Made by a program: the position numbers and the translations under genes
In this document: positions 1,088 through 1,186 of the stretch, piece after piece
Layout: every line of letters starts with the position of its first letter
How positions within the stretch are numbered: the first letter of the stretch is position 1
NCBI GenBank assembly: GCA_015065645.1
Contig: SVPW01000003.1
Coordinates: forward strand, 1 to 64,000
Origin: Oscillospiraceae bacterium
GTDB lineage: Bacteria > Bacillota > Clostridia > Oscillospirales > Acutalibacteraceae
Direction of reading: 5' to 3'
DNA: 64,000 nt
The notes under the pieces: generated by a model
What the model was told of the DNA's origin: nothing
What the model saw: only the letters and a program-made list of their open reading frames with translations
Databases searched by the model: none

Positions 1088-1186
1088 ATGAAGGCTTATG
1101 TTGAAATCGTTAAGTTTGACGTTAAGGACGTAATTACTACAAGCGAAGGCGAATATACTTGCCCGACTGAGGGTGACCTCGACTAA
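1088..1186 (+). CDS. Candidate RiPP precursor peptide, 32 aa: MKAYVEIVKFDVKDVITTSEGEYTCPTEGDLD
   Basis: ATG at 1088 after a gaggtg SD-like sequence, stop TAA 1184-1186. Leader-like 'VEIVKFDVKDVITTS' followed by a short Thr/Cys/Glu/Gly tail; directly upstream of a radical SAM/SPASM gene. Below the length cut of the ORF track. Confidence 0.7.
   Translation: MKAYVEIVKFDVKDVITTSEGEYTCPTEGDLD

Follow-up and report, generated by a model that had tools for sequence, protein, structure and literature searches.

The first 64,000 nucleotides of contig SVPW01000003.1 of an Oscillospiraceae bacterium (assembly GCA_015065645.1; hereafter the window) contain an open reading frame (ORF) of 32 residues at positions 1088-1186 of the plus strand. 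This ORF probably encodes the precursor of a ribosomally synthesized and post-translationally modified peptide (RiPP) of the linear polyphosphorylated peptide (LPP) kind, in a subtype that includes a radical SAM (rSAM) enzyme. An earlier note on this DNA, made from the letters alone, had proposed a precursor gene missed by the ORF track, and its interpretation is supported. The genes follow each other in the order: end of a large protein, precursor, rSAM/SPASM enzyme, HprK-like kinase, and YcaO, after which comes a symporter-like gene on the opposite strand.

On comparative evidence, the ORF is a real protein-coding gene. It is complete, as the earlier note held, with an ATG start, a stop codon, the translation MKAYVEIVKFDVKDVITTSEGEYTCPTEGDLD*, and a Shine-Dalgarno motif (GAGGTG, 1074-1079, plus strand) 8 nt 5' of the ATG. 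Its GC content (42.4%) is indeed above that of the maturase gene that follows (27.4%). No family of NCBIfam, Pfam, or PHROGs matches it. However short, the 32-residue query retrieved from 300 genomes of the same family several ORFs that share its leader and adjoin a kinase gene, among other short ORFs with this leader. A profile made from the peptides of 19 relatives, mostly members without Cys and covering mainly the leader positions, found 140 copies in 67 of the 300 genomes, and relatives extend to many further families of the order. The leader type that the earlier note described as 'DVITTS' is real, LPP-like, and spread across this order of Bacillota. Seven gap-free leaders from the genus differ at 0.59 of the sites in the third codon position and at 0.21 in the second. 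Their in-frame ratio of nonsynonymous to synonymous differences (pN/pS) is 0.44, whereas 2000 column shuffles averaged 0.98 and never gave so low a value; the codon-substitution check proposed earlier therefore gave a protein-like and not a noncoding pattern. An ORF arising by chance 3' of a gene would also be short and overlooked by gene callers, as this one was. Yet the conserved relatives, the Shine-Dalgarno motif, the synteny, and the codon pattern contradict it, and we reject this explanation, on the last two grounds in particular, as having practically no chance of being correct.

The relatives have a common architecture, a conserved leader ending in D-V-I-T-x-S followed by a hypervariable acidic tail. 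In the window, the leader MKAYVEIVKFDVKDVIT- precedes Ser19 (codon 1142-1144), and the tail contains Cys25 (codon 1160-1162). Ser19 is present in 87/87 sequences where the motif could be placed, and Thr was never seen at this position, even if the search pattern permitted it. Considering only loci with a readable precursor, 16 of the 76 tails from loci without rSAM have Ser19 as their sole Ser or Thr. Since the residue is always Ser and these tails offer no other hydroxyl residue of the two kinds, Ser19 is the likely kinase site. The division into leader and core proposed in the earlier note stands overall, with the small change that the invariant Ser19 is probably a core residue.

The constant partner of the precursor is the kinase. 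In the window this is an HprK-like, LppK-like peptide kinase (2624-3340, plus strand) with the Walker A motif SGTGKT. Counting the stronger kinase matches, it is present in 65 of the 67 genomes with precursors versus 49 of the 233 without. Precursors lie at most 3 kb upstream of a kinase gene on the same strand in 28 cases, and in no case in any other orientation. In many genomes the region 3' of the kinase encodes a PqqD-type protein (PF05402), an S24/S26-type peptidase, an ABC exporter, and NTP_transf_5. The window kinase gene is a mosaic in composition (24.5% GC in its first 257 bases and 44.8% in the remainder), which suggests recombination.

The rSAM/SPASM peptide maturase (1261-2619, plus strand) is much rarer: 3 of the 300 family genomes and 16 of 70 genomes of the genus encode it. 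It retains the CX3CX2C motif (C117/C121/C124) and seven further invariant cysteines. Where the precursor could be read, all 17 precursors beside such an enzyme have Cys in the tail (one to four each), versus none of the 76 found elsewhere, which total 1594 tail residues (Fisher p = 6e-19, for sequences that are not independent). The link is found in at least two lineages, the short-leader clade of the genus and the genomes G121 and G347, which have a longer leader type and rSAM enzymes 56% identical to each other. It also holds within a single genome, G301, where the precursor of the rSAM locus has a Cys and the one at another kinase locus, without rSAM, does not. The earlier note would have been refuted by a lack of conserved homologues beside rSAM, HprK, or YcaO genes; homologues do adjoin rSAM genes, usually with the kinase as well, in 13 further genomes of the genus whose loci could be read and in a different genus. 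The enzyme directly adjoins precursor and kinase in nearly all rSAM loci. Its predicted model (mean predicted local distance difference test, pLDDT, of 90.1) is closest to PDB entries 5why and 5wgg, which are structures of CteB, a thioether-forming maturase. A thioether is therefore the likeliest chemistry, and the enzyme would modify Cys25, probably by forming one. The gap between precursor and maturase genes holds a strong, terminator-like hairpin (1194-1226, plus strand), with a counterpart in 13 of 14 rSAM-linked loci.

Two further components are encoded in the window. A discrete PqqD-type, LppB-like RiPP recognition element (RRE; 21814-22080, plus strand) is directly followed by a SipW/S26-type, LppS-like leader peptidase (22080-22538, plus strand), which carries Ser29, His68, and Asp93; the Ser and the His are invariant across 12 relatives. 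No other genes of the system are alongside these two, which are flanked by a gene of unknown function and an enolase gene. Linkage is tighter in related genomes. In G254, of the same genus, the order is exported protein, precursor, terminator, rSAM, RRE, kinase, ATP-grasp protein, and peptidase. Further loci of the genus have precursor and rSAM, usually with kinase, RRE, and peptidase, and the discrete RRE is linked in G254, G346, and others. G346 has a homologue of the precursor adjoining rSAM, kinase, YcaO, RRE, and peptidase genes. A second PqqD match, on C49, was discarded as it is near genes of another pathway; the 458-aa protein beside it looks by eye like a SCIFF-type maturase. Sister loci have possible tailoring genes for an ATP-grasp protein (PF14397) and GT61 glycosyltransferases (L120:3830-4969, L166:1701-2921, L176:1194-2447).

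The YcaO protein (3361-5151, plus strand; E. coli S12-type architecture) is uncommon, with a close YcaO in only four of the 70 genus genomes. It adjoins the kinase in G000, is located between kinase and RRE in G346 (62% identical), and in G302 (58% identical) lies on a contig with GT61 and peptidase genes, rSAM and kinase being on another contig. The two copies in G314 (42-49% identical) are standalone. The lone relatives L029 and L030 had raised the suspicion of a standalone housekeeping YcaO, which we dropped given its position in G346. YcaO joins the cluster in G000 and G346, and probably in G302, and we regard it as a cluster-associated option. Its role is the weakest part of our interpretation. 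The earlier proposal of tail residues as plausible targets of rSAM, kinase, or YcaO fares well for rSAM, since Cys25 tracks that enzyme, and for the kinase, with Ser19 as its likely site, but less so for YcaO.

These components would make up the following pathway. The RRE would bind the leader, the kinase would add one or more phosphates to Ser19, and the rSAM enzyme would modify Cys25, in most likelihood linking it through a thioether to a core residue close by. Cutting just before Ser19, near Thr17, the S26-type peptidase would with the RRE remove the leader. A cut after Ser19, with small residues at -3/-1, was also considered, but we do not favor it, since the conserved Ser remains part of the core in LPP. 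An unlinked exporter would release the product, YcaO may introduce an azoline or alter the amide backbone, and the terminator-like hairpin probably sets an excess of precursor over enzyme.

Several observations weigh against this assignment. In the window genome, a draft of 85.7% completeness, the RRE and the peptidase are 19 kb from the precursor, no exporter adjoins the window genes (exporters were not searched genome-wide), and the only two NTP_transf_5 genes are located in a sugar-gene region and were not counted as part of the system. The leader lacks the YxxP motif of LPP, as do 15 of the 17 rSAM-linked leaders. The contrast of 17 versus 76 overstates independence, because the rSAM-linked loci come mostly from one genus. 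Tail Cys also has possible exceptions: L306, without rSAM, has a weak candidate with such a residue, and L294 and L307, of the genus and without rSAM, have a Cys-bearing small ORF of another leader type. The latter (L294:1606-1743, L307:2207-2347) represents another precursor-like type (F-S/T-E-P...F-L-C), which occurs near window-type kinases and has no D-V-I-T-x-S junction. One could consider a plain LPP-like phosphopeptide, with an rSAM enzyme acting elsewhere and a Cys for metal binding or a disulfide, given that in most loci the LPP enzymes suffice without an enzyme found in so few family genomes. The Cys correlation, the contrast within G301, and the position of the rSAM gene directly beside precursor and kinase make this improbable. 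We consider even less probable a sactipeptide or ranthipeptide pathway of the SCIFF/PapB kind in which kinase and peptidase would play an accessory part. The SPASM-type enzyme and its CteB-like fold would fit such a pathway, as would its nearest NCBIfam models (TIGR04463, CefB, geopeptide, PapB, and Clo7bot), all of them far below cut-off (best score 155.6 bits for a cut-off of 525). The Cys is followed by Asp or Glu within seven residues in 16 of 17 tails, which are so acid-rich that the chance expectation is high, and PapB accepts a Cys followed by an acidic residue (the Cys-Xn-Asp/Glu link rule; PMC9413430). However, the constant partner of this leader family is the kinase, with rSAM a minority add-on. 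Moreover, a PapB-like link cannot be general, as the Cys of G254 is followed by no acidic residue, which also counts against our own proposal.

A different question concerns what the peptide is for. Compatible with the chemistry of the LPP-like pathway, the product could be a partner of the exported protein encoded upstream, surface-attached or co-exported, and not a free natural product. In the window, this neighbor is a large protein, probably exported, of which only the C-terminal part is encoded (3-1070, plus strand), since the contig begins within its gene (base 1 of the window is also base 1 of the contig); it has weak similarity in C-terminal regions to the upstream proteins of other rSAM-linked loci. 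Of 59 precursors whose same-strand upstream neighbor is complete, 56 are no more than 300 bp from it, and a crude signal-peptide test, with a background of 38%, marks 50 of these 56 neighbors as apparently exported. Some genomes contain as many as nine precursor hits, most of them with no kinase adjoining, and the orphans examined are mostly right behind a gene for an exported protein. For example, the loci L178-L188 (G073 and G087) have eight or nine hits per genome, mostly after such genes and with no kinase alongside. In G121 (L045:4330-4959), the C-terminus of the upstream protein, VIELPIITV, closely resembles that of the precursor itself, IELPIIPVK. This arrangement suggests that one enzyme set may serve many peptides, each paired with its own exported protein. 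Yet no direct link was seen, and no exported partner has been described for the LPP of Bacilli, which are often near capsule loci (PMC13381572). We hold the partner role to be rather unlikely, if far from negligible.

Going one step further, the system may represent a hybrid RiPP class in which a phosphoserine and an rSAM-made Cys crosslink occur on one short core, with a third, backbone change where YcaO is present, and whose product is the partner of the upstream exported surface protein. We put this forward tentatively, as somewhat less probable than an even chance. Under this hybrid reading, the same leader and kinase serving Cys-free cores elsewhere in the order would imply that the gain of rSAM and the gain of Cys evolved together.

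The LPP-like family was described in 2026, for the most part in Bacilli. These results extend it to a large order within the gut-type Bacillota, in which it is common (67 of the 300 sampled family genomes) and its precursors are easily overlooked as genes. The kinase and rSAM chemistries would be joined on one short core. Since the same leader occurs with and without rSAM, and with and without Cys, there is a natural control that makes the kinase site at Ser19 and the rSAM site at Cys25 directly testable. The constant exported neighbor provides a first handle on the role of LPP. We found no earlier description of an LPP-like subtype with a SPASM rSAM enzyme, and sometimes YcaO: a literature search, with subscription papers outside its coverage, gave no paper on the combination, and the text describing LPP has neither 'radical SAM' nor 'Clostridia' (PMC13381572). 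Beyond the cluster, the opposite-strand gene at 5231-7162 resembles a Na/amino-acid symporter and has a glycine riboswitch upstream (RF00504, 65.9 bits, 7239-7332, minus strand).

Among known systems, the E. coli-type YcaO (the RimO accessory factor, PDB 4q84) provides both the closest solved structure and the closest NCBIfam model for the window YcaO. This protein scores 217.9 bits for a cut-off of 700 and is part of a RiPP cluster, its close relatives (58-62%) being cluster-associated and the distant ones (42-49%) standalone. Phosphorylated lasso peptides of the paeninodin type share the HprK-like kinase, the NTP transferase, the PqqD-type RRE, and a YxxP/WxxP leader. Their leader peptidase differs from the S26 type found here, and neither a lasso macrolactam cyclase nor a B2 protease was recognized in the window cluster or in the shared neighbor families. 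Ranthipeptides and sactipeptides (SCIFF-CteB, PapB, Clo7bot) have in common the rSAM/SPASM enzyme, the Cys-containing core, and a structure most like CteB, but the leader, kinase, and peptidase are here LPP-like and no NCBIfam rSAM model reaches its cut-off.

The closest system is LPP itself, described in May 2026 from the lppA-K-B-S-D-N locus of Paenibacillus alginolyticus (PMC13381572). It comprises a precursor (LppA), an HprK-like kinase (LppK), an RRE (LppB), a SipW-like peptidase (LppS, catalytic residues S29/H68/D93), an exporter (LppD), and an NTP transferase (LppN). Ser3 of the core is phosphorylated repeatedly, and S3T abolishes phosphorylation; the RREs bind the leader via YxxP, within the leader motif YxxPxVLxHQxIxFETxxS (PMC13381572). 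The window shares the precursor-linked kinase, the discrete PqqD-type RRE, a SipW-like peptidase with the three catalytic residues at the LppS residue numbers, and a conserved leader before a variable core with a strictly Ser junction residue. Many kinase loci of the relatives, though not the window genes, have an MsbA-like exporter and an NTP transferase alongside, and YxxP occurs in 61 of the 76 relatives without rSAM. The differences are the added rSAM/SPASM enzyme with Cys in the tails, the YcaO, ATP-grasp, or GT61 genes of some loci, the exported protein as upstream neighbor, and a leader without FET, its junction being D-V-I-T-x-S instead of FETxxS with the Ser kept. Because the kinase, RRE, peptidase, and Ser are shared and YxxP is absent, we consider the window system a diverged, LPP-like variant and not a strict member of the family.
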